A DNA stretch of 64,000 nucleotides from Frankineae bacterium MT45 (GTDB lineage: Bacteria > Actinomycetota > Actinomycetes > Mycobacteriales > Jatrophihabitantaceae), in contig LT629697.1 of the NCBI GenBank assembly GCA_900100325.1, positions 3,841,423-3,905,422 on the forward strand, written 5' to 3'. How positions within the stretch are numbered: the stretch's first letter is position 1; each line of letters starts with the position of its first letter. The notes under the pieces are model-generated. The model saw only the letters and a program-made list of their open reading frames with translations, had not been told where the DNA came from and made no database searches. This document shows positions 7,783-29,698 of this stretch, piece after piece. A program made the position numbers and the translations under genes.

Positions 7783-7911
7783 CCGACGGCAGCAGTGAGC
7801 GGTGCGTGATCAAAACGCAGCCAGACAATGACACTCCGTAGACACGATAGAACGGCCGGTGTAGCGTCCGAGAGGATCGAGACCTAACCGAATCTGTCAT
7901 TGCGAGGGTCG

Positions 7912-13806: not shown

Positions 13807-13828
13807 GCGGGCGATGACCTCCGCCCGC
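13807..13828. terminator. Hairpin between convergent genes
   Basis: GCGGGCG-8 bases-CGCCCGC sits between the secreted protein stop and the pstB stop and touches the pstB TAG codon. It could end transcripts from both sides. The stem is only seven base pairs, with no T-tract. Confidence 0.45.
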
Positions 13829-14769
13829 TAGCCGAAGTGGCCGTTCACGTAGGCGGCGGTGCGCGGGTCGGTCGGGGAGTCGAAGACCTCTGACGTTCGA
13901 CCGTGCTCGACGATCACGCCCGGTGTGGCGTGCTCGGCGAGGAAGAAGGCACACTGATCAGAGACTCGCGCTGCTTGCTGCATGTTGTGAGTCACGATCA
14001 CGATGGTCACGCTGGCGGCCAGTTCGGTGATCGTCTGCTCGATGACCCGGGTCGAGGTCGGATCCAGCGCAGAACACGGCTCATCCATCAGCAGCACCCG
14101 CGGCCGGACGGCGAGCGAGCGGGCGATGCAGAGCCGCTGCTGCTGGCCTCCGGAGAGAGCGCCTCCGGGCTGACCCAGCCGGTCGCGGACCTCGCGCCAG
14201 AGCCCGGCCCGGGTCAGCGACTCCTCGACCAGAGCGTCCTTCTCCGACCGGCTCACCTTGGTGCCGGTGAGTTTGAGGCCGGCTACGGCGTTGTCGTAGA
14301 TGCTCATGGCCGGAAAGGGGTTCGGCTTCTGGAAGACCATGCCGATCAGCTTGCGGGCCTCGGTCAGACGTCGCTGCGGGGAGTAGATGTCCTCGCCGTC
14401 GAAGAGCACCTCACCGGCCAGCCCGGCGCTCGGCACGAGCTCATGCATTCGGTTGAGAATGCGCAGGAAAGTCGACTTGCCACAGCCGGATGGGCCGATC
14501 AATGCGGTGACCTGCCCGGCCGGCATCAGCAGGCTGACCCGGTCCAGCACCTTGCGCTCACCGAACCACGCCGAAATCTCACGGGCGTCAATCGTCCCCG
14601 GCGGCCGTCCGGCCAGCACCCCGGCTCGCTGCCCCGCTCGCTCCCCCGCCGGAACGGCCGCGATCGGCGCCGTCTCCCAGGAACTCCCGTTGCCCGCTTG
14701 GGCATCGAAGCTGGGTACCGGCTGGCCACCGGTCTCGATTGCTGCGCTCACTATTGCGTCCCTCATCAT
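13828..14769 (-). CDS. pstB: Phosphate ABC transporter ATP-binding protein PstB
   Basis: ATPase of the high-affinity phosphate importer, binding the cytoplasmic face of PstC/PstA. Walker A 'GPSGCGKST', Q-loop 'GMVFQKPNPFP', signature 'LSGGQQQRL', Walker B 'VLLMDEP' and H-loop 'VTHNMQQA' are all intact. 'ILNRM' and 'VFQKPNPFPAMSIYDN' are PstB-specific. The start is placed at ATG 14769 (a second ATG follows directly): a longer frame to 14838 would begin inside a terminator hairpin. Even so the ABC core starts only about 60 residues in, a longer N terminus than usual. It is separated from pstSCA by about 11 kb of surface-protein genes, all on the same strand. Confidence 0.93.
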   Translation of the reverse strand: MMRDAIVSAAIETGGQPVPSFDAQAGNGSSWETAPIAAVPAGERAGQRAGVLAGRPPGTIDAREISAWFGERKVLDRVSLLMPAGQVTALIGPSGCGKSTFLRILNRMHELVPSAGLAGEVLFDGEDIYSPQRRLTEARKLIGMVFQKPNPFPAMSIYDNAVAGLKLTGTKVSRSEKDALVEESLTRAGLWREVRDRLGQPGGALSGGQQQRLCIARSLAVRPRVLLMDEPCSALDPTSTRVIEQTITELAASVTIVIVTHNMQQAARVSDQCAFFLAEHATPGVIVEHGRTSEVFDSPTDPRTAAYVNGHFG

Positions 14770-14804
14770 TCGAAGCGACCCCGGAGAGGGGTCTACACCT
14801 GTCT

Positions 14805-14844
14805 GCAGGTGTGGCCCGGACGTAGCAGTCCGGGCCACACCTGC
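14805..14844 (-). terminator. Perfect 17-base-pair terminator hairpin
   Basis: GCAGGTGTGGCCCGGAC, a six-base loop, and the exact reverse complement lie between the LANTG protein stop (14883) and the pstB start (14769). It is the strongest hairpin noted in the window and has no U-tract, as is common in actinomycetes. It should separate pstB from the surface-protein operon, or allow regulated read-through. Confidence 0.8.
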
Positions 14845-14882: not shown

Positions 14883-16412
14883 TTACCGCTTGAACCAGCC
14901 GAACTTCCGGCGCCGAGCAGCAAACGTGATACCGAGCCCTCCGGCGATCAGGAGAACCCCGATGCCGATATCGCGCGCGGTGTCGACGCCGGTGTTGGCC
15001 AGCGAACCACTGTCGGAGGCGTTGACCGCAGTCGCGTCCACTGCCGAAGCGCTCACCGTGAAGGGCACGCTGACCACCGTGGCGCCGTCGGTGAAGACGA
15101 CGTGGTGTGCGCCTGACTCCAGGCTGGTCGGCACGACCAGCGCATAGGTCACCGTGCCGTTCGAGTCAGCCGTCACCGTTCCGAGCGCGATCGGGGTCGA
15201 GTGCAGCTCGATCGAGACCACGTCGCCGGCCGCGAATCCCCCGACCTGGAGGGTGACCGACTGACCGGGGGTCAGAGTCGGCGACGATCCGAGCGGGTTG
15301 CCGTTGGAGTCGACGAACGACTTGACGGACGGGCTGGGTGACGGGGTGGAGCTGGCCGCCGGAGTCGGGGCGGCGGTCGGCGCCGGCGTCGGCGCTGCGC
15401 TTGGCGTCGGAGCCGCGGTTGCGGTCGGCGTCGGTACCGGAGTCGGAGCCGGCGTCGGAACGGCCGTCGGCGTCGGAGCTGCGGTCGCGACCGGCGTCGG
15501 AACAGCGGTCGGCGTCGGTGCCGGAGTCGGAGCCGGGGTCGGCACGGCCGTGGCCACCGGAGTCGGAACAGCGGTCGGCGTCGGCACCGCGGTCGCAACC
15601 GGCGTCGGAACAGCGGTCGGCGTCGGAGCCGCAGTCGGAGCCGGCGTCGGAACCGCGGTAGCTACCGGAGTCGGAACTGCCGTCGGCGTCGGTACCGCAG
15701 TCGGAGCCGGCGTCGGAACTGCCGTCGGCGTCGGAGCTGCGGTCGGAGCCGGCGTCGGAACAGCGGTCGGCGTCGGTACCGCGGTCGGGGTGGGCGTAGG
15801 CACCGGGGTCGGAGTGGCAGCGGGCGGCGTCGGGTAGACAAGCGTCCACGTCGAGCCGGTCACCTTGATGTCGGCCACGTCGTAGCCGGCCGTAATGGTT
15901 GCTCGGGCCCGACCGGTGCGCAGGCGCAGCTCGTAGATGCCGCCGTAGCCGTCGGTCGTGCTGGTGTCGGTGTTGGGCGAGCCGGCGATGTAGCCGGCCA
16001 GGCTGGTGTCGTCCGTCGTGCCGGTGACGACGGGGAGCGTGGTGCTGATCGACGCCGGCGCACCGACGACGGGGTAGTTCGGGGAACCGCTCAGCGGCGA
16101 CCCACCGAAGGCACCCGGAGCAGTGCCGAGCTGCGGCGTGTACGCATAGAGCGTCGCAGTGGTGTCTCCGCTGCGGATGTCGTCCGAACCGACCACGTAC
16201 GCCGCGATCGGTGCGTCGTTGATGCTCCCGCTGACGATCTGGTTTCCAGATGCATCGAAGAAGGAGAGCGTCCCAACCTTGTTCGGATCGCTACCGCCAA
16301 CCTGCCAGGGCGGCGTGTCGGCCGATGCGCCGTGACTGCTCGCCAGCACCGCCGTCACCGAAATCGTGACCAGCGCAGTCCCCACCAGGGTGCCGATCTT
16401 TCGCTTATTCAT
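14883..16412 (-). CDS. LANTG-anchored surface protein with long Pro-Thr spacer
   Basis: The 509 residues comprise a signal peptide (1-31), a 150-residue domain shared with two neighbours (about 35-185), a Pro-Thr-Ala spacer (about 190-365), an Ig-like segment (about 370-465), LANTG (471-475), a transmembrane stretch (about 481-499) and the tail 'RRRKFGWFKR'. LAXTG proteins are linked to the wall by class E sortases. The shared domain shows 'FFDASGNQIVSGSIND' and 'ATLYAYTP'. AGGAGAGG precedes ATG 16412; the start overlaps the stop of the upstream gene by eight bases, so the two are translationally coupled. The spacer should lift the domain clear of the peptidoglycan. Confidence 0.85.
   Translation of the reverse strand: MNKRKIGTLVGTALVTISVTAVLASSHGASADTPPWQVGGSDPNKVGTLSFFDASGNQIVSGSINDAPIAAYVVGSDDIRSGDTTATLYAYTPQLGTAPGAFGGSPLSGSPNYPVVGAPASISTTLPVVTGTTDDTSLAGYIAGSPNTDTSTTDGYGGIYELRLRTGRARATITAGYDVADIKVTGSTWTLVYPTPPAATPTPVPTPTPTAVPTPTAVPTPAPTAAPTPTAVPTPAPTAVPTPTAVPTPVATAVPTPAPTAAPTPTAVPTPVATAVPTPTAVPTPVATAVPTPAPTPAPTPTAVPTPVATAAPTPTAVPTPAPTPVPTPTATAAPTPSAAPTPAPTAAPTPAASSTPSPSPSVKSFVDSNGNPLGSSPTLTPGQSVTLQVGGFAAGDVVSIELHSTPIALGTVTADSNGTVTYALVVPTSLESGAHHVVFTDGATVVSVPFTVSASAVDATAVNASDSGSLANTGVDTARDIGIGVLLIAGGLGITFAARRRKFGWFKR
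15345..15830 (-). repeat. Low-complexity Pro-Thr-Ala coding repeat
   Basis: About 160 codons built from 'PTPTAVPTP' and 'APTAAPTP' units with near-periodic 18 and 30 base spacing. It encodes the spacer of the LANTG protein. Such tracts change length by slippage. An open frame on the opposite strand (Gly/Val-rich) is a by-product. Confidence 0.85.
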
Positions 16413-17346
16413 CCCGTGAACCTCTCCTAGTTGTGTTGCCTTGAAAATCTGGGGTGGTGTGACGGCCGCCCACACCGAAGCGTCGCCGGGCCAGCACGGC
16501 GACCGCGGCAATCGCTGCGATCGCCAGCCCGAGCCACCACCAACGTGTGGTCGATCCGGCGCCGGCGCTCGTGCTCTCGGCAGCGAGGCGTCCGCTCGGG
16601 GCGGCTCCCGTCAGGGGAATGGAGGCTGCGGCCACGCTCGCGGACGTCCTCGCGGCGGCGGCTGAGGCCGACGCGCCGGCGCCGGAGGCTGCCTTGGGGT
16701 GACCCGTCGAGACCGGAGGCGGTGCGGTCAGATCGGCACCGGGGAGCACACTCGTCTCGAAGGATGTTGCAGATCCGGCCGTGCAGTTCTGATCTCCCCC
16801 GCGGAGAACGCTCCAGGTATCGCCGGTGATCTGGATATCTGTCGCGTCGTACTGCTGCTGGTCGAGGGGCTTGTTCGGCGCACCCAGGTAGAGCCGCAGC
16901 TCGACGAGACCCCCTACCTTTGTTGGATATCCGGTCAGGAAGGCGTTCAGCGCGTCATCGCCGCCGGTGGCCTGCGCCATCGGGTGGGCCGCGTTGGTGT
17001 AGTTCGAGGAGGACGTGAGCATCTGGCCGCTCCACTCCGCCGGCGGAACGTTCGGTCGCGGCTGGAACGCGTAGAGCGTCGCGGTGCGACCGGGGACCGA
17101 GTACGCCGCCGGAGCCGCGCTCGCCCCCACCGCTCGCCAGACGAACGGGGACGAGGCGATGCTGCCGGAGTGGATGGGGTGGTTGCCCGCATCGCAGAGG
17201 CCGATCGTTCCGCTGGCCTTGGGGTCGGTGTACGGGACCGAGGCGGCCGACGCGGCCGACATCGGGAATAGGACGGCGAGCACCAGCGATAGCAACGTGA
17301 TCATGGCGATGCTGAGGATGCGGACACGGCGTGGCTGTCGGTTCAT
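16405..17346 (-). CDS. Membrane-anchored paralogue of the surface-domain family, 313 aa
   Basis: A signal peptide (hydrophobic core at residues 10-33) is followed by a diverged copy of the shared domain (about 40-190; 'GTIGLCDAGNHPIHSGSI', 'TATLYAFQP', 'VELRLYLG', 'DIQITGDTWSV'). An Ala/Ser-rich spacer leads to IPLTG (243-247), a transmembrane helix (about 269-286) and a 27-residue basic tail. IPLTG is sorting-like but lacks the LA of class E substrates, so the tail may simply be a membrane anchor. It sits between the DUF916 gene (4-base overlap) and the LANTG gene (8-base overlap), forming one operon. Extra Cys residues (CDAG, NCTAG) could form a disulphide. Confidence 0.75.
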   Translation of the reverse strand: MNRQPRRVRILSIAMITLLSLVLAVLFPMSAASAASVPYTDPKASGTIGLCDAGNHPIHSGSIASSPFVWRAVGASAAPAAYSVPGRTATLYAFQPRPNVPPAEWSGQMLTSSSNYTNAAHPMAQATGGDDALNAFLTGYPTKVGGLVELRLYLGAPNKPLDQQQYDATDIQITGDTWSVLRGGDQNCTAGSATSFETSVLPGADLTAPPPVSTGHPKAASGAGASASAAAARTSASVAAASIPLTGAAPSGRLAAESTSAGAGSTTRWWWLGLAIAAIAAVAVLARRRFGVGGRHTTPDFQGNTTRRGSRDE

Positions 17347-18527
17347 GCCCCCGACCCCACCGGTTGCGGTGCCCGGGATCCGCCTGGTCCGTCGCTGGAC
17401 TCCCGTTCGGGCTCAGGGTTGGGCGACGGCTTGAGTTCGCCGCTGTGCCGGCCGGTTGGACGGTTTCGCCACCATCGCCACCACAGCGCGAGGGCGAGCA
17501 GCAGTAGGACCGCGGCCACGATCACGAGGAGTAGCCAGGGCACCGCCCAGGTCGTCGCACTCCCGACGTACGGCTTCAAGGATGGGTCGGCCTGCGACGT
17601 GATCGCCGCGGTCGGTGTGAGCCGGACGGTTGCCGTGAGCCGAACGCGGGGCGCAACACCGGCTACCTCGAGTCGCTGCTCGACCGAACCACCGGGCAGA
17701 AGGGCCTGGATTTGCGGCACATTGTGGGCGCTCACACTCGAGCCGAACCAGCCGGTGAGGGTGATCTCCTGCTTGGCGTCGAGGATCGCGTTGCCGGTGT
17801 TCTTCACCGTGTACCTGACGCTGGCCGAGCCATCGGCGAGCGCACCCGAACCCGGGTGATACGTCACGTGCACGTTCTCCACCGACAGTCGCGGCAGGAG
17901 CGCGCCGGAGACCCGGACGTACATGCGCTGCGCGACCCGCTGATCGAGCTGGAACTCACCGCCACTCTTGTTGACGGCTGCGGAGACGAGCGAGGCCACC
18001 ACGGCACCGACGTGATCACCGGGGCTGGCATTCGCCGGAACCTTCAACCGTACGGGGACGATCACCACGCCGGGCACACCGTGCGAGCTGGCCGGGACCG
18101 TCACATGCCCGCTGCCGCCGACGGTTATCCACGAGCCAACGGCTACTGGTCGCTGGCCGGCCGCGTCGAAGACGACCTTGCCGTCACGGGAGGTGGTCGC
18201 ATCAGCGGCGTAGACCGCGAGCGTCAAGGGAGTGAGACCGATGTTCTCGATCGCGACATAGTCATCGAGGCCGACGCCGGGGGTCACGTTGTAGGAGAGG
18301 ATCGACCGGCTGTCGGGGTGGGTCGGAGTCGCCGGCTGGACTCCGAAGCTCGCCCGTTGCGTGCGCGGATCGGGACTCGGCGTCGGTCCGGGAGTGGCCT
18401 GGGCCGGGGCGGCGGCCGCCAGTACCGAGCAGATCAGCCCAAGCGTCGACAGAGCTCGCAGGAGATATCGCACGCGCCTACGGGCGACCTGCGGTTGGTC
18501 AGATCTCATCGGTACTACGCGGTCCAT
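17343..18527 (-). CDS. DUF916-type membrane-anchored surface protein
   Basis: This 394-residue protein has a signal peptide (about 20-46), then a DUF916-like region (about 58-190) recognisable from 'FGVQPATPTHPDSRSILSYN', 'DYVAIENIGLTPLTLAVYA', 'PGVVIVPVRLKVPANASPG' and 'HVGAVVASL'. A second beta-rich domain (about 195-320) contains 'SVRYTVKNTGNAILDA'. One transmembrane helix (about 330-350) and a polar tail end it. In Firmicutes, DUF916 proteins bind peptidoglycan and partner WxL proteins within cell-surface-complex clusters. Here the neighbours are a WxL-like protein upstream and sorting-motif proteins downstream, which fits. First gene of a three-gene operon. Confidence 0.75.
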   Translation of the reverse strand: MDRVVPMRSDQPQVARRRVRYLLRALSTLGLICSVLAAAAPAQATPGPTPSPDPRTQRASFGVQPATPTHPDSRSILSYNVTPGVGLDDYVAIENIGLTPLTLAVYAADATTSRDGKVVFDAAGQRPVAVGSWITVGGSGHVTVPASSHGVPGVVIVPVRLKVPANASPGDHVGAVVASLVSAAVNKSGGEFQLDQRVAQRMYVRVSGALLPRLSVENVHVTYHPGSGALADGSASVRYTVKNTGNAILDAKQEITLTGWFGSSVSAHNVPQIQALLPGGSVEQRLEVAGVAPRVRLTATVRLTPTAAITSQADPSLKPYVGSATTWAVPWLLLVIVAAVLLLLALALWWRWWRNRPTGRHSGELKPSPNPEPERESSDGPGGSRAPQPVGSGA

Positions 18528-18562
18528 TCATTCTCAGGCGCCGTCGGCGGCGCGGTTCGGAT

Positions 18563-18614
18563 CTGTGGGTGGGCCGACCGGCGGCATCGAGCAACCGGTG
18601 CGACCCACCCACAG
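18563..18614 (-). terminator. Terminator after the WxL-like gene
   Basis: CTGTGGGTGGG pairs exactly with CCCACCCACAG, enclosing a further ACCGG/CCGGT stem. It begins nine bases past the stop of the WxL-like gene and ends before the DUF916 start, separating the two transcripts. Confidence 0.7.
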
Positions 18615-18622
18615 GTGTTCAG

Positions 18623-20338
18623 TTAGCCAACCGTGAAGGTCAGGTGGGCGATGTAGTTGCCAGCCGCTGTGTTGCTCGGCGCGACAAGCGAGAGAGTGCC
18701 GGTAAAGCCGATGGTTCCGGTGCCGTTCGTCGCCGTGGCGAAGGTGTGCGGCGAACCCTTCAGCCCCAGCGATCCGGTGTCGGTCGTCGACACGCCAAGT
18801 GCGGCGGCGTTGTCGAAGGTCTTGACGTTCCCGGCCGCCCCCGGAAGGGCGTTACCGGCGGTGGCGACCGGCGTCAGCGCGGTGAGACCCAGGTTCTCGC
18901 CGTTGATGCTCCCGGTGCTCGAGCTGAAGTCCGTGCTCTGGACGGTGGCCGTCCAGGGCAGGTTTCCGGCCCGGGTGTCGGTGACCTGAATCGGGTCGGT
19001 ACTGGTGCCGAACGGCTTACTGGCCTCCAGGTAGGTGTCAGTGGAGTCCAATGCGAGCTGGCCGAGATCGATCGGGTTGGTCACCGTGTACGGGCTGCTG
19101 ATGGACAGAGATCCGGCGGCAACCTCAGCCTTGACGTCCGACAGCGCCGGAGCGGCGCCGGCCGGAGCGTCAGCGGTGTAGGGAACCGCGGGTGACGTCG
19201 AGCCGGTGAAGGAGGCGGCATCCGCCGGCGTGAAGACCGCGGTGAGGCTGTGGCTTCCCTGGCCGAACAGGTTGTACGCCAGTGTGGCCGAACCCGCCGA
19301 AACGACGGCGCTTCCGAGCACGCTGCTGCCATCCAGGAACTGCACCGAACCGGCGGCCGAGGACGGGGTGACCGTGGCGCTGAGGGTGTCCGCGCTGTAC
19401 GCGGCGGTCGGGCCGGAGATGGCCAACCCGGTGGTTGTCGCGACGGCCGCCGAGTGGGCGATGTTGAAACTCAAGGTGCCGGTCGAGGCGCCGACCGCGG
19501 CATTGGCCGCCGGCGTGAAGACCGCGCTGAGGGCGTGGTTGCCGACCGTGGCGAAGCTCGTCGGCAGGGTCGCGACGCTGCCGACCAGGGCCACCGGAGC
19601 ACCGAGAGCGGTGGTGCCGTCCTTGAACTGGACAGTTCCGCTGACGCTCGGTGAGACCGTGGCGGTCAGCGTCACGGCGTCGCCCTGGCTGGCCGAGGCC
19701 GGCGATGCGGTGAGCAGCGTCGTCGTCGCGGTGACGCTCGGCGCCGGGTAGACGACCTGCCAGGTCGATCCGGTCACCTCGATGTCGACCGCGTCGTAGG
19801 CCGCCGGTGAGCTGGCCTGCGACTTGTTGGTCCGCAGCCGAAGTTCGTACAGGTTGCCGTAGCCGTCGGTGGTGCTGGTGTCGGTGTTCTGACGACCTGC
19901 GATGTAGCCGGCCAGCGAGTTGTCGTCCGACGTTCCAGAGACGACCGGCAGAGTCGTGCTGATCGAGGCCGGTGCCCCGGCCACCGGGTAGCTCGTCGAG
20001 CTGCTCAGCGGGTCGCCACCGAACGACCCAGGCGCGACCCCGGCCTTCGGCGTGAAGGCGTACAGGGTGGCCGTCGTGTCACCGGCGCGAGGAGCCGTCG
20101 AGCCCACCGCGTAGGCAGCGATCGGAGTGTCGTTGATGCTGCCGCCGAGGATCTGGTTTCCACTGGCGTCGAAGAGACTGATCGAGCCGACTTCATTCGG
20201 GTCGGTGTTGCCGGGCGTCTGCCAGCCCGGCGTAACGCCGGCGGCATTGGCCGGCGCGGCTACGGCGACCAGGCCAGCGGTGGCGAGAGCCGCCACGGCA
20301 AGCCCGGCGACCGCTGTTGGTCTAAACTTGATGGGCAT
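18623..20338 (-). CDS. Secreted WxL-like protein with Ig-like repeats
   Basis: The 571 residues hold a signal peptide (1-33, ending 'PANAAG'), the shared surface domain (about 40-180, 'LFDASGNQILGGSINDTPIA'), two Ig-like repeats ('ATVSPSVSGTVQFKDGTTAL' and 'ATVTPSSAAGSVQFLDGSSV') and a C-terminal domain (about 385-571). That domain has 'VTDTRAGNLPWTATV' and ends 'NYIAHLTFTVG', the layout of WxL domains, where W-x-L sits in strands that bind peptidoglycan; here the tripeptide is WTA. There is no sorting motif or C-terminal helix. AAAGGA precedes ATG 20338 by eight bases. It is monocistronic, with terminators on both sides. Confidence 0.7.
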   Translation of the reverse strand: MPIKFRPTAVAGLAVAALATAGLVAVAAPANAAGVTPGWQTPGNTDPNEVGSISLFDASGNQILGGSINDTPIAAYAVGSTAPRAGDTTATLYAFTPKAGVAPGSFGGDPLSSSTSYPVAGAPASISTTLPVVSGTSDDNSLAGYIAGRQNTDTSTTDGYGNLYELRLRTNKSQASSPAAYDAVDIEVTGSTWQVVYPAPSVTATTTLLTASPASASQGDAVTLTATVSPSVSGTVQFKDGTTALGAPVALVGSVATLPTSFATVGNHALSAVFTPAANAAVGASTGTLSFNIAHSAAVATTTGLAISGPTAAYSADTLSATVTPSSAAGSVQFLDGSSVLGSAVVSAGSATLAYNLFGQGSHSLTAVFTPADAASFTGSTSPAVPYTADAPAGAAPALSDVKAEVAAGSLSISSPYTVTNPIDLGQLALDSTDTYLEASKPFGTSTDPIQVTDTRAGNLPWTATVQSTDFSSSTGSINGENLGLTALTPVATAGNALPGAAGNVKTFDNAAALGVSTTDTGSLGLKGSPHTFATATNGTGTIGFTGTLSLVAPSNTAAGNYIAHLTFTVG

Positions 20339-20442
20339 CTGAGTTGTCCTTTTCCTATGCACTTCGTAGTGGTTTTTGGCGTTTGCGAGTGTGTAGATGA
20401 GGATCCGCAACCATTGATGCCTCCCCGGCAGGTGGGCGCGGA

Positions 20443-20563: not shown

Positions 20564-21739
20564 CTAGTAGGTCGTGCCCAGGTCGTTGTAGAGCGGCGTC
20601 GCCCCGGATGAGGTGATGAGTGCCTTGCCAGCCGACGTGTTGAAGTACGGCTTGGCCAGCGAACCCGGGTTGGAGAAGAGCGCCTGCACCCAGTTGAGCG
20701 TGCTGCCCGGCTGCCACGGAGTGGTGCTCGCCGCGTCAGTGTCACGGAAGATGATGTAGTACGGCAGCGGAATCGACGCCGCCGCGGCACCGTCGCCGGC
20801 CGTACCACTCAGCAGCTTCACGCCTGAGGTCAGCGGGGTGGCGCTGCCCGGGAACGGGACGCTCGGGTTGAAGAAGTACCCGTGGGCGTACAGCGTGTTG
20901 CGGCTGGTGGGGAACGGCACGATGGCGTCCACCTGCTGGGCCGCGGGCAGCGTCGTGATCGTCGTCGGGTCGTTCTGCTCAACGCTGACGACATTGCTCG
21001 CCAGCGTGATGGCCGTCCCGCCATTCGCGGCCGTGAGCGCATTGAGGAACGTGTTGCGCACACCGGCGCCGGCCTGCGGAATCTGCGGAATGATCGCGTC
21101 CGCGGATCCCGCCGAGTTACCCGGCAGCTCGTTCCAGTGCTTGTACGTGCCGTTGTAGATCCCGACCAGCTCATTGAGCGACAGCGCCGACGGGGCGTTG
21201 GTGGTCGTCGCGGTGGCGATCACCTGCGTGTCCGTGGCGATCTGCACGACATGCAGGTCGGAGCCCAGGCCGCTGGTCGCGGTGATCGGACCCTTGGCCA
21301 AGTTGCGCTGCGCGCTGGTCGGCAGGTTCGGGCTGCGCACGTAGCTGATCTCATCGGTTGCGCCATCGGCCAGCAGCGCGGAGATCCCGGCACTTCCGCC
21401 ATTGGGACGCTGAACGGGCGAGGTGCCCTCACGTAGCACGACGGTCGAGTTCAACGCGGTGGCGGTACCACCGACGTAGGAGTTGCGGCCGTTGGCGTCG
21501 GCGACGGCGTCGAAGTTGACCAGCCGGTTGACGTTGCCGGTGCTGTTGTAGCCGGCGTGCCCAGTGGTGTCACCGTCGGCGACGAAATCGACACCGTACT
21601 GCACCACGTCAGAACCGACGCCGACCACATCAGAACCGGTCGGTGCATTATCGGCATGAGCCGGTGTAACCACCACAATGGCGGTAGCGAATGCGGCACC
21701 GAAGACGGCTACCCGCATTCTGTTAGAGATTGCTTTCAC
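20564..21739 (-). CDS. Secreted PstS-like substrate-binding protein, 391 aa
   Basis: A signal peptide (residues 1-29, 'VTPAHAD') precedes a type II periplasmic-binding-protein domain. 'VVGVGSDVVQYGVDFVADG', 'IYNGTYKHWNELPG', 'QAGAGVRNTFL' and 'IPFRD'-like 'YIIFRDTD' are positioned as in PstS relatives. There is no lipobox Cys and no C-terminal helix, so in this Gram-positive cell it would be released or held by other surface proteins. The ligand is probably phosphate or a phosphate-like anion by homology and context. GTG start with AAAGG nine bases upstream. It has its own terminator and a long upstream region. Confidence 0.8.
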   Translation of the reverse strand: MKAISNRMRVAVFGAAFATAIVVVTPAHADNAPTGSDVVGVGSDVVQYGVDFVADGDTTGHAGYNSTGNVNRLVNFDAVADANGRNSYVGGTATALNSTVVLREGTSPVQRPNGGSAGISALLADGATDEISYVRSPNLPTSAQRNLAKGPITATSGLGSDLHVVQIATDTQVIATATTTNAPSALSLNELVGIYNGTYKHWNELPGNSAGSADAIIPQIPQAGAGVRNTFLNALTAANGGTAITLASNVVSVEQNDPTTITTLPAAQQVDAIVPFPTSRNTLYAHGYFFNPSVPFPGSATPLTSGVKLLSGTAGDGAAAASIPLPYYIIFRDTDAASTTPWQPGSTLNWVQALFSNPGSLAKPYFNTSAGKALITSSGATPLYNDLGTTY

Positions 21740-22115: not shown

Positions 22116-23072
22116 TCAGAATAGATTCGGGAGCAGATTCGCCGACACTCCACCGGCCAGCCAGGCGGCCGCGGCGATCGCCGGAACGGCCGCCAGCCAC
22201 ACCTGCGGGAAATGCCATTTGGCACGCACCCAGACCGTCGCCAACAGCAGCACGATTACCAGCTGGAGCGCCAGGACGAGTTCGAAGAGCGACACCAGCG
22301 AGTCGTCGATCGCCATCGCCGACTCGTTCGGCCCCAGCGTCGCCACTGCCGTCCGCACAACCGGATCACCCGAGAGGACGGCGTCGACGTAGACCACCGA
22401 ATGCGGCATGAAAGAACCGAGGAATCCCGATCCGGCCGCCGTCTCCAGGGTGAGCCGGGAAGCCCCGGCCACCGCGGCCGGGGCGGGATCACCGGCGTGA
22501 CGGATCCCGTCCACCCGGTAGCGGAAGGTCCCCTGACCGGTTGTGGCAACGATGACCGCCCCCGGGCGCAGATGATTGATGTCGTGAAACGGCGCGCCGT
22601 AGGTGACCGACTTCCCGTAGATCACGGTCGTTCCCACCTGCCCGGGCAGCACACTGGATGGGAGGTGCCCGGGGGCGTCCTTCAGGATCGCCGAGGTCGT
22701 TCCCTCCACCACGACCAGGCCGTCAATACCCGCTGAAGTCGCGCTCAGCGTGGCGATGGGCGCGCCGCCGGGGATGGGCTGCGCGAGAGGCGCATCCCCA
22801 CTGGCCAGTTCGGTGCGGAACCGGGCGTAGAGACCGTGCTGCGCACGCGATTCTTCAAAGTGGCTGAAGAACAGCAGGTAGACGATCGCCCAGGCCGCGA
22901 TCACCGCGAGCACGATCAGCGATCGCGCCGCCACGACGGTCGCCGTCTGCTCAGGCGATCGGCTCACTGACGGTGCCGGTGACGCTGACGGTGCCGGTGA
23001 CGGTGACGGCGATGAGGGCGGAGGCGGCGACTGAGCGGGCCGCCGGGATCGGGGCGAGATCGAGGTCCTCAT
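22116..23072 (-). CDS. Class E sortase-fold protein lacking catalytic residues (pseudosortase)
   Basis: The 318 residues hold a Pro/Ser-rich cytoplasmic N terminus, a helix (about 46-70), a sortase beta-barrel (about 100-235) and two further helices (about 262-282 and 290-312). The barrel aligns well with class E sortases: 'GLVVVEG', 'KDAPGHLPSSVLPGQVG', 'VTYGAPFHDI', 'LRPG'. At the catalytic positions the usual GH reads GK (Lys154 for His), the usual TLTTC reads TLETA (Ala212 for Cys) and the Arg site reads His224. Transpeptidation is therefore not expected. The C-terminal membrane helices are also unusual for class E. It starts two bases after the upstream gene's stop and so belongs to the pst operon. 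Confidence 0.85.
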   Translation of the reverse strand: MRTSISPRSRRPAQSPPPPSSPSPSPAPSASPAPSVSRSPEQTATVVAARSLIVLAVIAAWAIVYLLFFSHFEESRAQHGLYARFRTELASGDAPLAQPIPGGAPIATLSATSAGIDGLVVVEGTTSAILKDAPGHLPSSVLPGQVGTTVIYGKSVTYGAPFHDINHLRPGAVIVATTGQGTFRYRVDGIRHAGDPAPAAVAGASRLTLETAAGSGFLGSFMPHSVVYVDAVLSGDPVVRTAVATLGPNESAMAIDDSLVSLFELVLALQLVIVLLLATVWVRAKWHFPQVWLAAVPAIAAAAWLAGGVSANLLPNLF

Positions 23073-23074
23073 GA

Positions 23075-25831
23075 TCAGCGTCCGCCTCGGCCGCGGGAGA
23101 CTCTGGGATTCCTGAACATCGAGCTGACGAGCAGCCCGGGCTCACGAAGCAACTCCGGCCTCCGAGTCAAGGGGGCAGCGATGGCGGCGAGCAGGACGAT
23201 GCCGCAGAGCACCGGCAGGAAGATCCGCGCGAGCATCGAGCTGATGTCGGCCGTCTGCACTCGCTGCGACGCGAGCGTGGTCAGCGGCTGTGGCGCCACC
23301 GCCTGGGCGGCGGGCGCTGCTCCAGCCGGGACCGGTTCGGCGGCCGGTTTGGGGACGCTCACCGCGGCCGGCGGCGGCTGCGCGACCACCGATGCGGCGT
23401 CAACCGAGGTGGTCGGAATCGAGGTCGGAGCCGGGTCATGGCCCGACGGCGCCGGCACGAAGCCGACCTGGTTGTTCACCGCGTCCGCGGCCTTCAGTGT
23501 GTAGTCCTCAAGATTGCCCAGGTTGTTGGCCTTGGTGATCGGCAGGTACCCGGGCGGGAGTTCACCGTTGTCCAGACCAGGGCTCTGGCCGGCGGTCGCC
23601 GCGAAGCGAAGTAGGGTGGCCAGCTTTCCGGCGTCGCTGGGGGCGAGCCCGGTCGTCGGCACATCGGCGTAGATCAGCATCGTGCCCGGGTAGGCCTGAC
23701 GTCCGGCGGCGGTCTCCTTCAGGGTGGTGTACGGCACCGGCCACGTCCCCGAGGCGTCATCCGGCCGGGCGAGGTTCGCCGCAATTGCCAGCGAATCATT
23801 GCTGGGCGTCGCGAAGGTCCCGCCGGTCTGAGACTTCGTGTCCGGCCCATCGGCCGTCTCCAGCGCGGCCGAGTGCAGGTCATATCGGCTCGCTTCGGCC
23901 AGGGACGTCACGCCGAGCACGAACCGGTGCCCCGGCGTCTGCGGGATCCCAGAAGTCGTCAACTTCAGCGTGGAGACATTGACGTCGTCGTAGTAGCACG
24001 AGGTCTGCGAGTTGGGCAGACCGAATACCACCGCGTCGACGATCTCGTCCGGGTCCTCGGTCGGATGGGCGATCAGCTGCAGGTAGTCCGAGGGGCTGTT
24101 TTCGTAGCAGGGGTTCTGGCTGTCGTTGGCGAGCTGGGTGTGGTCGTTCAACGGCCACGATGTCACCGGCAACGCAATCTTCAAGTAGTTCGGATTGACC
24201 CTCATGCCCCACGGATCAGGCGCTCCGTCGAGAAACGCTCGGGCCTGAGGATCGGCGTTGATGTAACTGGTCAGGGCCCAGTTTGTGTCAGCGTTCGCCG
24301 ACAGCATCAACAGCGTCGATGCGTAGTCGGCGACGTTGAGCTTGGGCAGGCCAGGATTGAGCGCGATGAATTCAGGATCGTAGGTGATGTTCTGCGGATT
24401 CTTGGCGATCGCCGGGTCGGCGTCCTGCACAGCAGGGATGGCGTAGTAAGACTCCGACAGCAGTTTGGCGATCAGACGCGGAGTGAGCCGGAGCGACTGA
24501 TACGGCTGGCCCTTCGCGTCATCGATGGTGTAGCTCACCGAGAATCCACTGATCGCCACGGGAGCCTGTACAACTGGGTGGTTCCAGCCCGCGTCCGGAG
24601 CGCGACTGGAGAACGCGGCCTCGATGTTGCCGGCCTGCAGCAGGTTGCGCGCCTCATCATCACCACGCTGAACATGCTGGAATGTGAACTTCTTCGGGTC
24701 AGTGCAGAAGGCCGGCTCCCACTGCGACGTCGCCTCGGTCAGGGGTATCGACCCGTAGATTGCGATGCTGGAAGATTGATCGCCGCTCAACGAACAGACG
24801 CTGTCATCCGGCGCGAACGAGAGCGGCACGACGAGTCGGTTCTGCCAGTTGGAGGCGCTCCACCAGAGCGCTCCGGTCACCGTCTGGCTCGACGGCGCTC
24901 CGGCGCCCTGCCACTGCGACCCCGGCGCGTAGTTTCCGTTCGCCTCGCAGGCCGCGATGTCATCGTCGTCTGCGCCGGCGGTGGTGGCGTCGCAGCCGAT
25001 TCCGAGAATGGGGACGGCGACCAGTGAGCACGGAACGGTTGACGAGCAGCCCAGAGTGGCGTTCTCACTGTGGCTCGTGACCTCGAAGGACGTCGACCCG
25101 GTTCCGTCGGTCTGGGTGACGCCGTAGGTGTCATTGGAGGGCAGCCCGCTCTCGACCGCCTTCGCCTCAGGAGGGAGCGTCCCACACGGGCGAAGAGGCG
25201 ACGTGGCCGAGGATTCGTAGAAGACATCGCCGTTCTGCGCCCGCAGTGGCAGCCAGTGTTCGGCCAGGTCGCGGCTCATGCAGCTGGCCGGGAAGGCTGG
25301 TGCGCCGGCCCGCACCTCGCGCTCGGTCGCGGTTGCCGCGGCGTCCAGCCGGTACGGCGGATAGGCCGTCGAGGCCGAGCTCTGAAAGCGTTCCTTGTAG
25401 GAGTTGGTCCAGCACGTTTCGGGCGTTACCGCCGAAGCTCCATCGCCACCCGTTCCCCGGCACTCCAGCAGCACGAAGGGATACTCCTCGTACTGCGCGG
25501 CGTCAGCGGAGTGAACCTGCGAATTCAATGCGCCAGTGGGATGGGCCCCTGACCACGAAACATCGATCAGTTCCCGGCCGCGCAGCTCGGTTGTCTGACC
25601 AACCGACATCGTGATGTGGTCAGTCTCGACCGTGGCCTTCGTGCCATCTGCGTTGAGGTTCGTCCGCGTCGCGGTGCCTGACACGGTGACGGCGGAGCCG
25701 GTCGGGTCAGCCTTACTTGGATTGGCCAGAACGACGCTGAATCCGACGGAGGCCGCCACCGCAGCCGCCGCGACCGCTCGTCGCCACGGCGAGGTGAGCG
25801 GGTCGCGGTGGCGATGAGCCCCGATTGTCAC
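23075..25831 (-). CDS. Large membrane-anchored PstS-like binding protein, 918 aa
   Basis: A signal peptide (about 15-42, 'SKADPTG') leads into a very long extracellular part. Segments such as 'IAIYGSIPLTEATSQWEPAFC', 'ALWWSASNWQNR' and 'SLRLTPRLIAKLLSESYYAIP' resemble the two lobes of PstS-type binding proteins, broken by long insertions rich in Cys. A Pro/Ala stretch (about 810-850) precedes one helix (869-888) and a basic tail. It begins with a GTG overlapping the pstS stop by four bases, and pseudosortase follows after two bases, so all are co-translated. Ligand unknown; phosphate or an organophosphate is the contextual guess. It is about 2.5 times the length of ordinary PstS. Confidence 0.7.
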   Translation of the reverse strand: MTIGAHRHRDPLTSPWRRAVAAAAVAASVGFSVVLANPSKADPTGSAVTVSGTATRTNLNADGTKATVETDHITMSVGQTTELRGRELIDVSWSGAHPTGALNSQVHSADAAQYEEYPFVLLECRGTGGDGASAVTPETCWTNSYKERFQSSASTAYPPYRLDAAATATEREVRAGAPAFPASCMSRDLAEHWLPLRAQNGDVFYESSATSPLRPCGTLPPEAKAVESGLPSNDTYGVTQTDGTGSTSFEVTSHSENATLGCSSTVPCSLVAVPILGIGCDATTAGADDDDIAACEANGNYAPGSQWQGAGAPSSQTVTGALWWSASNWQNRLVVPLSFAPDDSVCSLSGDQSSSIAIYGSIPLTEATSQWEPAFCTDPKKFTFQHVQRGDDEARNLLQAGNIEAAFSSRAPDAGWNHPVVQAPVAISGFSVSYTIDDAKGQPYQSLRLTPRLIAKLLSESYYAIPAVQDADPAIAKNPQNITYDPEFIALNPGLPKLNVADYASTLLMLSANADTNWALTSYINADPQARAFLDGAPDPWGMRVNPNYLKIALPVTSWPLNDHTQLANDSQNPCYENSPSDYLQLIAHPTEDPDEIVDAVVFGLPNSQTSCYYDDVNVSTLKLTTSGIPQTPGHRFVLGVTSLAEASRYDLHSAALETADGPDTKSQTGGTFATPSNDSLAIAANLARPDDASGTWPVPYTTLKETAAGRQAYPGTMLIYADVPTTGLAPSDAGKLATLLRFAATAGQSPGLDNGELPPGYLPITKANNLGNLEDYTLKAADAVNNQVGFVPAPSGHDPAPTSIPTTSVDAASVVAQPPPAAVSVPKPAAEPVPAGAAPAAQAVAPQPLTTLASQRVQTADISSMLARIFLPVLCGIVLLAAIAAPLTRRPELLREPGLLVSSMFRNPRVSRGRGGR

Positions 25832-27513
25832 GACGCATCCCCCGATGACCGGATGGCGAGCCGACGCGCGTAGAGAGCCGGCCCGATGAGGACCAGCACG
25901 AAGAGCACAACGGCCAGGATGATCAAGATGACCCCGATCCCAGCCTGATCGTCAGTGGAGAGTGTCTGCGGTACGGCGATCGGTTCTGAATTGGACGTAG
26001 CGACCAGGCCCGAGTCATTGAAGGCAAGAGCGTCTGCGCCTTGACTCGCCGAGGCGGCGGCCGCGGGTCTTGCCGCTCCACCTGCGGCGGCAGCACCACC
26101 ACCCGCGGTCGCAGCATCACTACTCACGTTCGCCTTCTGTGCAGCTGCTGCCTTGTTGGCCGCAGCGGCACCGGCCGGACTGCCGTTGTAGGAACCGACC
26201 CCGGCATCGCACGGCCCCGCGCCCTGCTTGTCACAGGCCGGCGGTTGGGGTGCCTCGACGGCAAGCAGGTTCTTGCTCAGATCATGACGGTCGAAGGTGG
26301 GGTTTCCACAGTTCGAGGCATCCAGGTGGGCGACATCGACCGCCGCGTCGGCTTGATGAAGCTTGGCGATCTGAGCGAAGCCGGCCTGCACCAGGTTGAT
26401 CGGCAGCGAGGAGTAGCCAATAGGGCCGATCTCCTTCTGCCCCTGACAGATCGCATAGTTCAGGAAGTCGGCGTTCGACTGCTTCTTCTCGCTCGTCATG
26501 CGCGGGTCGCTGCCGGGCGGAGTCTCGTTGGGTCCATTCGCGATCGGCAGAATCGAATACACATAGGAAGAGAGCGGATACGTACGCGGATCCGTGTTGA
26601 CGTAGACGTTGCTGAGATCAGCAGTGAGGTAGTTCTGATCGTTGGCATTCAGGTCAAAGACCGCCTTCGTCAACGCGACAGCCACGTTGTACTGCGTCGG
26701 AAGGGTGTAGTAACCAGCCTTGTTGAGCAACTTGGCCACCGGGTAGTTCAGGGCCAATGCGTAGGAGTACTCCTCGACGCCGATCGAGCCGTTCGCATTC
26801 GGGTTGGTGAGGAAGTTCATCACACCGTCCGAGCCCGACTGCGCCTTCTGCGGACCGTGCGACTTCCCGCAATTCAAAGGGAAGTACTCCGTCTCGGCGT
26901 CAACCCCACCATTGCAGGGGGCCCAGTCGCTGCCGTCCACCTTCGCCAGGTACTCGGTGAACATGGCCGTGGTGCCCGCCCCCTCGGAGTGCACGACCGG
27001 GATGATCGGCAGCGAGGGGAGCGCGTGATTGTTGTTGTCGGCCGTGACAGCCGGGTCGTTCCAGTTCGTGATCTTGTTGGTGAAGATCTTGGCCAGCGTG
27101 ATGGGTGACAAGCGAAGATTGCGCACCATCTGGTTTCCAACCTTGATGTGGTACGGAAACGCCGTCCCGCCGGCTGCGATGGGAAGGTAGGCCAGCTGCC
27201 GCCCATTTGCCGTATCCGGTTCGTGAGTTGTCGGGTCCTTGCCTTGGAACGGGATGTCGGAGATCGCCATGTCGTTTGCATCATTGGCGAAATCCTTGCG
27301 CCCCTGAGCTGACCCCGAGGGCGTGAAGTCCGCCTGGATGCCTTGCGAATGCACGTCGACGACCCACTGCCCGACCGCCGCGGCCGCCCAACTCGAGCCG
27401 GTCACTTCGATCTCACCGTGCCCGGGGGCGGCGGCGGCCACCGCCGGATTGACCGCCGCCGTCAGCAGCAGTCCAACCGATAGCAGCGCGACTGCATGCT
27501 TGTGCCTCTTCAT
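25828..27513 (-). CDS. pstS: Phosphate-binding protein PstS, C-terminally membrane anchored
   Basis: This 561-residue protein captures phosphate outside the cell for PstC/PstA. A signal peptide (1-28) without lipobox Cys is followed by the PstS domain: 'EVTGSSWAAAAVGQWV', 'DIPFQGKD', 'SEGAGTTAMFTEYL', 'GSDGVMNFL' and 'GSIGVEEYSYAL'. An Ala-rich spacer (about 450-510) leads to a transmembrane helix (about 526-549). Most actinobacterial PstS are lipoproteins, so anchoring by a C-terminal helix is different. ATG 27513 is chosen because AAAGG lies seven bases upstream; the frame is open further upstream only as antisense-like sequence inside pstA. The start overlaps the pstA stop by one base. Confidence 0.9.
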   Translation of the reverse strand: MKRHKHAVALLSVGLLLTAAVNPAVAAAAPGHGEIEVTGSSWAAAAVGQWVVDVHSQGIQADFTPSGSAQGRKDFANDANDMAISDIPFQGKDPTTHEPDTANGRQLAYLPIAAGGTAFPYHIKVGNQMVRNLRLSPITLAKIFTNKITNWNDPAVTADNNNHALPSLPIIPVVHSEGAGTTAMFTEYLAKVDGSDWAPCNGGVDAETEYFPLNCGKSHGPQKAQSGSDGVMNFLTNPNANGSIGVEEYSYALALNYPVAKLLNKAGYYTLPTQYNVAVALTKAVFDLNANDQNYLTADLSNVYVNTDPRTYPLSSYVYSILPIANGPNETPPGSDPRMTSEKKQSNADFLNYAICQGQKEIGPIGYSSLPINLVQAGFAQIAKLHQADAAVDVAHLDASNCGNPTFDRHDLSKNLLAVEAPQPPACDKQGAGPCDAGVGSYNGSPAGAAAANKAAAAQKANVSSDAATAGGGAAAAGGAARPAAAASASQGADALAFNDSGLVATSNSEPIAVPQTLSTDDQAGIGVILIILAVVLFVLVLIGPALYARRLAIRSSGDAS

Positions 27514-28634
27514 CAACGAACCTTTCGCGGGCGGGCCGCCAGGCGGGCCAGCGTGAATAGGGTGATCACCAGGGCGAGCAGCACCGCCGCGGCGCCGAAG
27601 CCACGCGCGATGTCCTGGGTCTCCCCCGATCGCACGGACGTGTAGATGAACAGCGGCAGCGAGTTCATCGGATGGTTCAACGGGTTGGTGTTCAGGACGT
27701 TCGACGCCCCGGAAGTGAGCAGCACCGGCGATGTCTCTCCGACCATCCGCGCGATGCTGAGGATCAAGGCGGTCGCCAACCCGGGGCGAGCCGACGGGAG
27801 TACGACCCGCCATACCGTCTGCCACCGGGTCGCACCCAGGGCGTAAGACGCTTCCCGGAGACCGCCCGGCACCACACGCAGGACCACGTCGGCTGAGCGG
27901 GCCATAATCGGCAGGCCCATCACGGCGAGCGCTATCGCGGCGGCGATACCGCTCCGGGGCACGTGCAGATCAACCAGCAGCACGGTGTAGATGAAGAGCC
28001 CGGCGACGATGGACGGCAGCGCCGTCATGGCCTCGACCACGGTCTTCACCCAACGAGCCAACGGTCCCCCCACCTCGGAGAGGAAGACGGCGGTCGCGAT
28101 ACCCAGCGGCAGTGCGATCGCCACCGCGATACCGACCTCGATGAGTGTTCCGACGATCGCGTGGACGATCCCGCCATCGCTCAACGAATCGGTCGGGCGG
28201 GTTGTGGCCATCGTCTGGGTGAAGAAGTTCCGATGATGAAAGGCCTTCCATCCTTTGAAGAAGGTGAATACCAGCATTGACGCCAACGCGAGACCGACCA
28301 CCACCGGCGCCGCGATCACAACGGTCGACGCCACCCGGTCGAGGACGACGGCCCGTGGTGCCGACATCGCGGTGAGGCCGGCGTAGAAGACCACGAAGAG
28401 CACGAACCAGGCCATCACAAAGCCAAAGCGCCCGGAGAAGGGCAGCAGCCTCTCGTAGAGCAGCCACACAAAACCCAGCGAACCGACGGCGGCTCCGACG
28501 AGCGTCAGTCGATCCTCCGGCGTACGCGAGGAGAGTGCTCGGCGCCGCTGAGCCGGCAGTGAAGGGCGTGGCGGTACAACCGGTTGCGGCTGCGCGGCCG
28601 CCGTCACTGTGGGTGTGGCCAGTACGTCGGTCAT
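27513..28634 (-). CDS. pstA: Phosphate ABC transporter permease PstA
   Basis: Inner-membrane subunit, 373 residues with about seven hydrophobic segments. The binding-protein-dependent permease domain includes 'VEAMTALPSIVAGLFIY' and the EAA loop 'LREASYALGATRWQTVWRVVLP', which contacts PstB. The first 40 residues are a polar Pro-rich cytoplasmic extension, and an additional pair of helices (about 50-110) precedes the domain, so the N terminus is longer than in E. coli PstA. It overlaps pstC by four bases and pstS by one, giving the order pstC-pstA-pstS rather than the common pstS-pstC-pstA. Confidence 0.92.
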   Translation of the reverse strand: MTDVLATPTVTAAAQPQPVVPPRPSLPAQRRRALSSRTPEDRLTLVGAAVGSLGFVWLLYERLLPFSGRFGFVMAWFVLFVVFYAGLTAMSAPRAVVLDRVASTVVIAAPVVVGLALASMLVFTFFKGWKAFHHRNFFTQTMATTRPTDSLSDGGIVHAIVGTLIEVGIAVAIALPLGIATAVFLSEVGGPLARWVKTVVEAMTALPSIVAGLFIYTVLLVDLHVPRSGIAAAIALAVMGLPIMARSADVVLRVVPGGLREASYALGATRWQTVWRVVLPSARPGLATALILSIARMVGETSPVLLTSGASNVLNTNPLNHPMNSLPLFIYTSVRSGETQDIARGFGAAAVLLALVITLFTLARLAARPRKVR

Positions 28635-29698
28635 AGTTCGGTCACTGCTCCGGATCGGCCGCGCGCCACGATCATCGCAGCGAGTGTGTTGACGCCCAGG
28701 GTGATGAGAAAGAGAACGAACCCAGCACTCAGCAGTGCTGAAAGCTGTGAGGGCGTCGCCTCCTTGTAGCCTTCGGCGATCAGGGATGCGATCGTGCTCG
28801 TCCCCGACTCCAATGGCCGGAACTTGAACTCGAAGGTCTGCGAGATGATGAGGACGACCGAGATGGTCTCGCCGAGCGCACGCCCCAGGGCCAGCATCGT
28901 GCCGCCGATGATTCCGCTACGCCCGAACGGGATCACTACGGTGCGAACCATTGCCCAGCGAGTCGCGCCGAGCGCGATCGCCGCCTCCTTCTCGCCGACC
29001 GGCGCCTGCGAGAAGACCTCCCGCATCACCGATGTCGCCATCGGAAACACCATCAAGCAGACGGCGATGCTCGCAATGAATACTGACCCCTCGAAGCTCG
29101 GGAATCCAGGACTGGAACTCCAGACCGGATAGTTGACGTCGGTGTGAACCCGGAAGATGCCCGTCCAGCCGAAGTACTTACTCAGCCAGAGCGCGATGTG
29201 GGTGGCGTGCGGCTGAATCAGCGCGAGGCCCCAGAGTCCGTAGATGATGCTGGGGACCGCGGCCATCAGGTCGACCAGGCGGATCAGCCGATCACGCAGG
29301 CGCGGCGGAGCCCAGTCGCTGATAAACAAGGCCGTCAACAGCGCCAGTGGAAACGACATCACCAGGGCGAAGAGCGCCACCTGCAGCGTGCCGAAGAGCA
29401 CGGACCCAATTCCCAGCACATCGCGGTTGGGCAGCCAGCGGGTCTCGGTAAAGAAATGCAGGCCGTAGTGGTGCAGGGTCGGATAGGACTGCGACCCGAG
29501 AAAGATAGCGATCGAGGAGATGATGACCAGGACGAAGGCACCGACGGCCTGCGAGCCATGGACGAAGAAGCGGTCGGACACGGCGAGGCGAGCCTGGATG
29601 GAGCGCGGGGCATCGGCCGTTCCGTCGGCCCGCAGCGCCCCGCCGACCGGCCCATCACCGACGGCCGGGTCGAGTTGCGGCAAGTCGGTGGTAGTCAC
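28631..29698 (-). CDS. pstC: Phosphate ABC transporter permease PstC
   Basis: 355 residues; about six helices. 'LVDLMAAVPSIIYGLWGL' and the EAA loop 'KEAAIALGATRWAMVRTVVIP' identify a phosphate-type permease that pairs with PstA. 'GRALGETISVVLIIS' is also typical of PstC. A 35-residue polar N-terminal extension precedes the first helix. The GTG start at 29698 has AGGA five bases upstream. It is the first gene of the leftward pst operon, so the operon's promoter should be in the 190 bases to its right. Confidence 0.92.
   Translation of the reverse strand: MTTTDLPQLDPAVGDGPVGGALRADGTADAPRSIQARLAVSDRFFVHGSQAVGAFVLVIISSIAIFLGSQSYPTLHHYGLHFFTETRWLPNRDVLGIGSVLFGTLQVALFALVMSFPLALLTALFISDWAPPRLRDRLIRLVDLMAAVPSIIYGLWGLALIQPHATHIALWLSKYFGWTGIFRVHTDVNYPVWSSSPGFPSFEGSVFIASIAVCLMVFPMATSVMREVFSQAPVGEKEAAIALGATRWAMVRTVVIPFGRSGIIGGTMLALGRALGETISVVLIISQTFEFKFRPLESGTSTIASLIAEGYKEATPSQLSALLSAGFVLFLITLGVNTLAAMIVARGRSGAVTEL

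Follow-up and report, generated by a model that had tools for sequence, protein, structure and literature searches.

The window, i.e., the whole 64-kb stretch of MT45 DNA that was analyzed, contains an operon in which the genes lie on one strand in the order PstC, PstA, PstS-like, p918, pseudosortase, PBP391, p595, p394, p313, LANTG protein, and PstB, and this gene order is seen again across Actinomycetota. The operon and the domains of the pseudosortase are positioned as follows, together with a surface protein encoded on the opposite strand:

28631–29698, minus strand: PstC permease (TIGR02138, 240 bits, above the equivalog cut-off of 196)
27513–28634, minus strand: PstA permease (TIGR00974, 218 bits, above the equivalog cut-off of 193)
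25828–27513, minus strand: PstS-like receptor with a C-terminal membrane helix; the ORF extends to 27825, with a likely Met start at 27513
23075–25831, minus strand: p918, with a signal helix, an N-terminal region (45–350), a PstS-fold domain (351–790), a Pro/Ala-rich low-complexity stalk, and a C-terminal membrane helix
22116–23072, minus strand: pseudosortase of 318 aa, with a predicted topology of an N-terminal membrane helix, an extracytoplasmic sortase barrel, and two C-terminal membrane helices (ORF, Pfam, and AlphaFold model)
22368–22760, minus strand: sortase barrel of the pseudosortase, residues 105–235 (AlphaFold model and VIA-align)
22122–22301, minus strand: C-terminal helix pair of the pseudosortase, residues 258–317, with a conserved LPN motif at the end
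20564–21739, minus strand: PBP391, a secreted PBP_like_2 protein and conserved neighbor
18623–20410, minus strand: p595, an Ig-like protein with a weak WxL domain
17343–18527, minus strand: p394, WxL-interacting-protein-like, with a C-terminal membrane helix
16405–17346, minus strand: p313, with an N-terminal domain in common with p595
14883–16511, minus strand: surface protein with an LANTG tail and Pro/Thr repeats, probably starting at the Met at 16412
13828–14838, minus strand: PstB ATPase (best family PstB, TIGR00972, 329.5 bits, just below the cut-off of 343.2)
7900–11565, plus strand: surface protein of 1221 aa with DUF7507/DUF11 repeats and an LALTG sorting signal

The two LAXTG proteins counted in the window by the initial annotation, a reading made from the sequence alone, are real. 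The pseudosortase gene starts 2 nt past the stop of p918, which makes the co-translation with a pst gene that was suggested at the time plausible. Its product matches the Pfam family Sortase (PF04203) above the cut-off (1.9e-12, 47.5 bits), and its best NCBIfam model is that of class E sortases (NF033747), with 64.6 bits lying below the curated cut-off of 160 bits. Among solved structures, its sequence matches 5uus best (1.7e-8), followed by the SrtE structure 5go5 (3.6e-8). An AlphaFold2 model was built from 14 homologues (mean pLDDT 76; block means of about 64 to 95 through the barrel), and VIA-align superimposes it on sortase D (4d70) with a Z of 18.9 over 152 residues at 2.6 Å and on the class E enzymes SrtE (5go5) and ScSrtE1 (5cuw) with a Z of 15.7 and 14.9, respectively. 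The sortase barrel fold, claimed in the initial annotation from sequence resemblance to class E sortases, is present in this model. Outside the barrel, the model contains an N-terminal helix (41–90) and the two additional C-terminal helices that had also been anticipated (258–286 and 291–317). The latter are hydrophobic and absent from the aligned active sortases, and the conservation of W292, P297, and the terminal LPN (314–316) within them suggests that they may pack against partners.

The positions that correspond to the catalytic residues of active sortases are occupied as follows:

22611–22613, minus strand: codon of Lys154 (AAG), catalytic His site, occupied by Arg or Lys in each of the 90 relatives
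22437–22439, minus strand: codon of Ala212 (GCG), catalytic Cys site, within TLETA; Cys in no relative
22395–22397, minus strand: codon of Val226 (GTG), catalytic Arg site; Arg in no relative

Alignment with active class E sortases confirms that Lys154 and Ala212 stand at the His and Cys sites, as initially assigned. The Arg site was correctly described as lacking Arg; however, the aligned residue is Val226, and His224, which had been named instead, sits two residues earlier. Among the 90 non-redundant relatives, the His site carries Arg in 84 and Lys in 6, while the Cys site carries Ala in 64, Ser in 20, Gly in 4, and Val or Thr in the remainder. H, C, and R are all present in the 45 active class E sortases of the comparison set, which were selected for H and C, not for R. 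The MT45 protein contains no cysteine at all, thus making an alternative thiol impossible, and a substitute His/Cys pair at another place in the pocket was ruled out, given that a single barrel Cys (position 149) occurs among the 90 relatives. Judged by these alignments, it is close to certain that the pseudosortase would not act as a cysteine transpeptidase. In one relative (locus L007, genome G010), 8 residues are inserted a short distance ahead of the former His site.

The relatives were collected in two ways: a search of related genomes returned 13 further full-length proteins, including a paralogue in the MT45 genome, and an alignment search with one genome per species yielded 370 relatives via one peptide pattern, of which the best 80 were retained. 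They occur in Nocardioides, Aeromicrobium, Microbacterium, Phytohabitans, Streptomyces, Jiangella, Herbiconiux, Acidimicrobiales, and other groups. Plasmid records yielded a single short match to the pseudosortase, beneath which no feature is annotated, and the sortase candidates of Actinoplanes missouriensis (PMC13251363) were examined for an experimentally studied orthologue. In the phylogenetic tree, 46 pseudosortase rows split from 45 active class E rows with a support of 100/100, and the stem between them measures 1.32 changes per site. The dN/dS values between close pseudosortase pairs range from about 0.05 to 0.30, indicating purifying selection on these genes. The simplest reading of the sequences is that the ancestor of the clade would have lost catalysis in a single event, with the protein being retained since. 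The fixation of the triad loss across 90 relatives of many genera and the purifying selection strongly support the pseudoenzyme reading of the initial annotation; they also refute a decaying gene or a sequencing error at the catalytic codons, an explanation that has nothing in its favor beyond the missing triad, is further opposed by a second paralogous operon within the MT45 genome, and retains a negligible probability.

Loss of catalysis is accompanied by loss of the residues that read the substrate. In ScSrtE1, Tyr229 is the proposed reader of the LAXTG alanine, and Ala249 and a long β6/β7 loop make contact with the bound peptide and the substrate, respectively (PMC5148588). The β3/β4 Tyr position is Leu137 in the MT45 pseudosortase and Arg or Leu in most relatives, with Tyr found in none, whereas the Ala249 position is taken by Tyr in MT45 and, with few exceptions, by Tyr, Met, Phe, or Leu in the relatives. 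The β6/β7 loop comprises about 15 residues compared with at least 25 in nearly all active enzymes, and it is at least 10 residues shorter in nearly all pseudosortase relatives. These replacements bear on the idea, raised in the initial annotation, of a receptor or chaperone for LAXTG tails, in which the dead sortase would bind sorting signals uncut and present the substrates to an active class E sortase encoded at another genomic locus. Such binding has a precedent in the PDB, where Cys-to-Ala sortases with bound peptide are found (e.g., 7s51 and 8t8g), and at some loci a sorting-signal protein adjoins the pseudosortase or lies close upstream of it, one being located five genes downstream in the MT45 window. 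However, the proposed LAXTG-reading Tyr and the Arg are lost, the Ala249 site has become bulky, the loop is short, and a sorting signal lies near only 13 of the 47 well-flanked loci, i.e., those with 8 kb on both sides. An LAXTG receptor is therefore unsupported and, in our estimation, improbable. At loci L082, L083, L085, L090, L094, and L102, one or two LPxTG-type proteins are encoded close upstream of the pseudosortase, and their membrane tail is of an unusual type (FGRMAxLLxRP).

An active enzyme to which substrates could be presented does exist. The window contains no active sortase, as initially stated; elsewhere, the MT45 genome encodes intact sortases of class E (one) and class F (two), and each of the 26 further genomes examined (26/26) has one or more sortases that carry His and Cys. 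This coexistence indicates that the pseudosortase does not replace the enzyme. It would also be compatible with a regulatory role, in which the dead paralogue pairs with a real class E sortase and modulates it; we consider this highly improbable since the active class E sortase of MT45 lies more than 800 kb from the pseudosortase, even on a circular chromosome, whereas the linkage of the pseudosortase to the Pst genes is constant.

That linkage includes p918, which is found at 73 of 80 loci, every time on the same strand as the pseudosortase; at the seven loci without it, the sequence upstream is shorter than 4.3 kb. Across 61 related genomes, p918 and a full-length pseudosortase are jointly present in 12 and jointly missing in 49, and both genomes with two pseudosortases carry two p918 genes; related genomes are among those counted, so that the observations are not independent. 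An early suspicion that PstB is missing from the locus was disproved by the gene at 13828–14838 and by its presence within the cluster at 76 of 92 loci, where it frequently follows the pseudosortase immediately; most of the other loci are short or cut. It is very likely that the pseudosortase belongs functionally with p918 and the importer, and the earlier proposal of a scaffold for PstS-like proteins gains indirect support from the fact that a PstS-fold protein and a Pst importer co-occur perfectly with the pseudosortase. The constant association of a dead sortase with a phosphate-type importer suggests that an old enzyme was recruited as a structural component of a transporter. A second paralogous operon (L036, C1:3766000-3783000) lies about 80 kb away on the MT45 chromosome and contains PstB, PstC, PstA, PstS, p918, a pseudosortase, two PBP391-like genes, and WxL-like genes.

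The model of p918 has a pLDDT of 80, and its residues 351–790 adopt a PstS fold that superimposes on M. tuberculosis PstS-1 with a Z of 31.8. No PstS ligand motif was found among the conserved positions of p918, and it may itself be a pseudo-receptor. The protein also has a large additional N-terminal region (45–350) and six invariant cysteines. A sorting-signal-like motif in its tail was rejected, as no strongly conserved position precedes the membrane helix and Thr reaches at most about 28%. The PstS-like protein of the window matches PBP_like_2 at 1.1e-33, and its loop reads VVHSEGAGTT in place of the VVR-DGSGT of most relatives checked, such that its ligand may differ from phosphate.

Several residues are conserved in the pseudosortases and new relative to the active enzymes, namely, R86, R154, R191, R206, and D230, with R137, R138, and D139 in most; conservation of 137–139 is inflated because the search pattern for the 80 relatives covered residues 136–144. 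Since R154, R191, and R206 are predicted to surround the old groove, with R137 and R138 added in most relatives, and the operon is of the Pst type, the Arg-rich former active site could be a putative binder of phosphate, a phosphorylated cell-wall polymer, or another anion that is passed to the importer. This ligand-binding role is weakened by the effect of the search pattern, by the lack of R137 and R138 in the MT45 protein itself, and by the fact that the importer is already equipped with receptors, and we regard it as unlikely.

The remaining genes of the operon encode a WxL-like surface part. For the WxL-interacting family PF06030, p394 scores 18.2 bits against a cut-off of 27.3, and the model is matched by 11 of 20 orthologues, at 3.7e-9 in the best case; for the WxL family PF13731, p595 scores 20.5 bits against a cut-off of 25, with matches in 6 of 19 orthologues (best 5.2e-6). 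Homologues of p595 and p394 were detected at 35 and 30, respectively, of 80 loci. The WxL-like surface part is an optional component of the operon.

Three known systems resemble parts of this arrangement. With class E sortases (ScSrtE1, 5cuw; SaSrtE, 5go5; and TfSrtE, 9iok), the pseudosortase shares the barrel, the N-terminal membrane helix, the GTxxxxLxxGPGH...LPGQ.G core, and a G-PF motif after the His site. It differs from them in the absence of His, Cys, and Arg, the replacement of the Tyr229 and Ala249 equivalents, the short β6/β7 loop, the two additional C-terminal membrane helices, and its fixed position in a Pst operon. Like the Pst importer PstSCAB (E. coli, 9k3x; M. tuberculosis PstS-1, 1pc3, and PstS3, 4lvq), the MT45-type operon combines PstC, PstA, and PstB homologues with PstS-fold receptors; contrary to PstSCAB, it encodes two PstS-like proteins with C-terminal membrane helices, one of which, p918, is very large and yielded no PstS ligand motif, and a pseudosortase is always present. 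The Csc/WxL clusters of Firmicutes, as described in the part of the 2006 survey consulted (PMC1534035), combine a WxL-like protein, a DUF916/WxL-interacting protein with a C-terminal membrane helix, and a sortase-substrate protein, a set that p595, p394, and the LANTG protein resemble. That part of the survey lists Firmicutes only, whereas the present genes belong to Actinomycetota, have weak domain scores, and share their operon with a Pst importer and a pseudosortase.

Taken together, the protein is probably a repurposed pseudosortase that serves a Pst-type importer as a docking or scaffold subunit in the membrane, frequently with a link to a WxL-like surface complex. The proposal builds on the modeled sortase fold, clade-wide catalytic loss, purifying selection, and a fixed linkage to p918 and the importer, with which the gene also co-occurs. 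The catalytic triad and the LAXTG-reading residues of a class E-like sortase would have been replaced once, early in Actinomycetota, the new residues now being conserved. The product would span the membrane with three helices as a subunit of a Pst-type ABC importer, and its barrel on the outer membrane face is speculated to hold or dock the tethered p918 beside the PstC/PstA channel, perhaps through its old active-site face; other PstS-like proteins are perhaps docked as well. Because operon linkage is no proof of contact, we infer rather than observe the direct binding of p918 and the face used. The cargo may be phosphate, to which family resemblance alone points, or another oxyanion. In many species, MT45 included, the operon additionally encodes the WxL-like surface complex. 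A bolder version, in which a sortase was converted once to a permanent non-catalytic subunit of an ABC importer and its Arg-lined groove recognizes the tethered PstS-fold protein or an anionic ligand, thereby coupling the wall-anchored surface complex to PstC/PstA uptake, is conceivable but held only tentatively.

Sortases are treated as enzymes by definition, and to our knowledge, no pseudoenzyme family has been described before in the sortase superfamily. A literature search, with most subscription journals and preprints outside its reach, found no description of a sortase pseudoenzyme, an earlier mention being possible, and scans of NCBIfam and Pfam revealed no family specific to the clade; the pseudosortase family, which is widespread in Actinomycetota, is thus apparently undescribed. 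If the bolder version is true, it would represent the first described pseudoenzyme family of this superfamily and a new architecture for nutrient capture across a thick cell wall. Annotation with the Pfam Sortase model, which these genes can pass, would count them as sortases, and a conserved family without catalytic residues implies that actinobacterial sortase counts are inflated, that the fold has a second use, and that a Pst-type importer can hold extra fixed subunits in its extracytoplasmic part. The docking idea is directly testable since the family is found in the cultivated genera Nocardioides, Aeromicrobium, and Microbacterium.

Two further features of the window are noted. The LANTG protein, p595, and p313 (14883–20410, minus strand) have a related N-terminal domain without a Pfam match, and a secreted Pro/Thr-rich protein of 508 aa, also without a Pfam match, is encoded at 12272–13798 on the plus strand.
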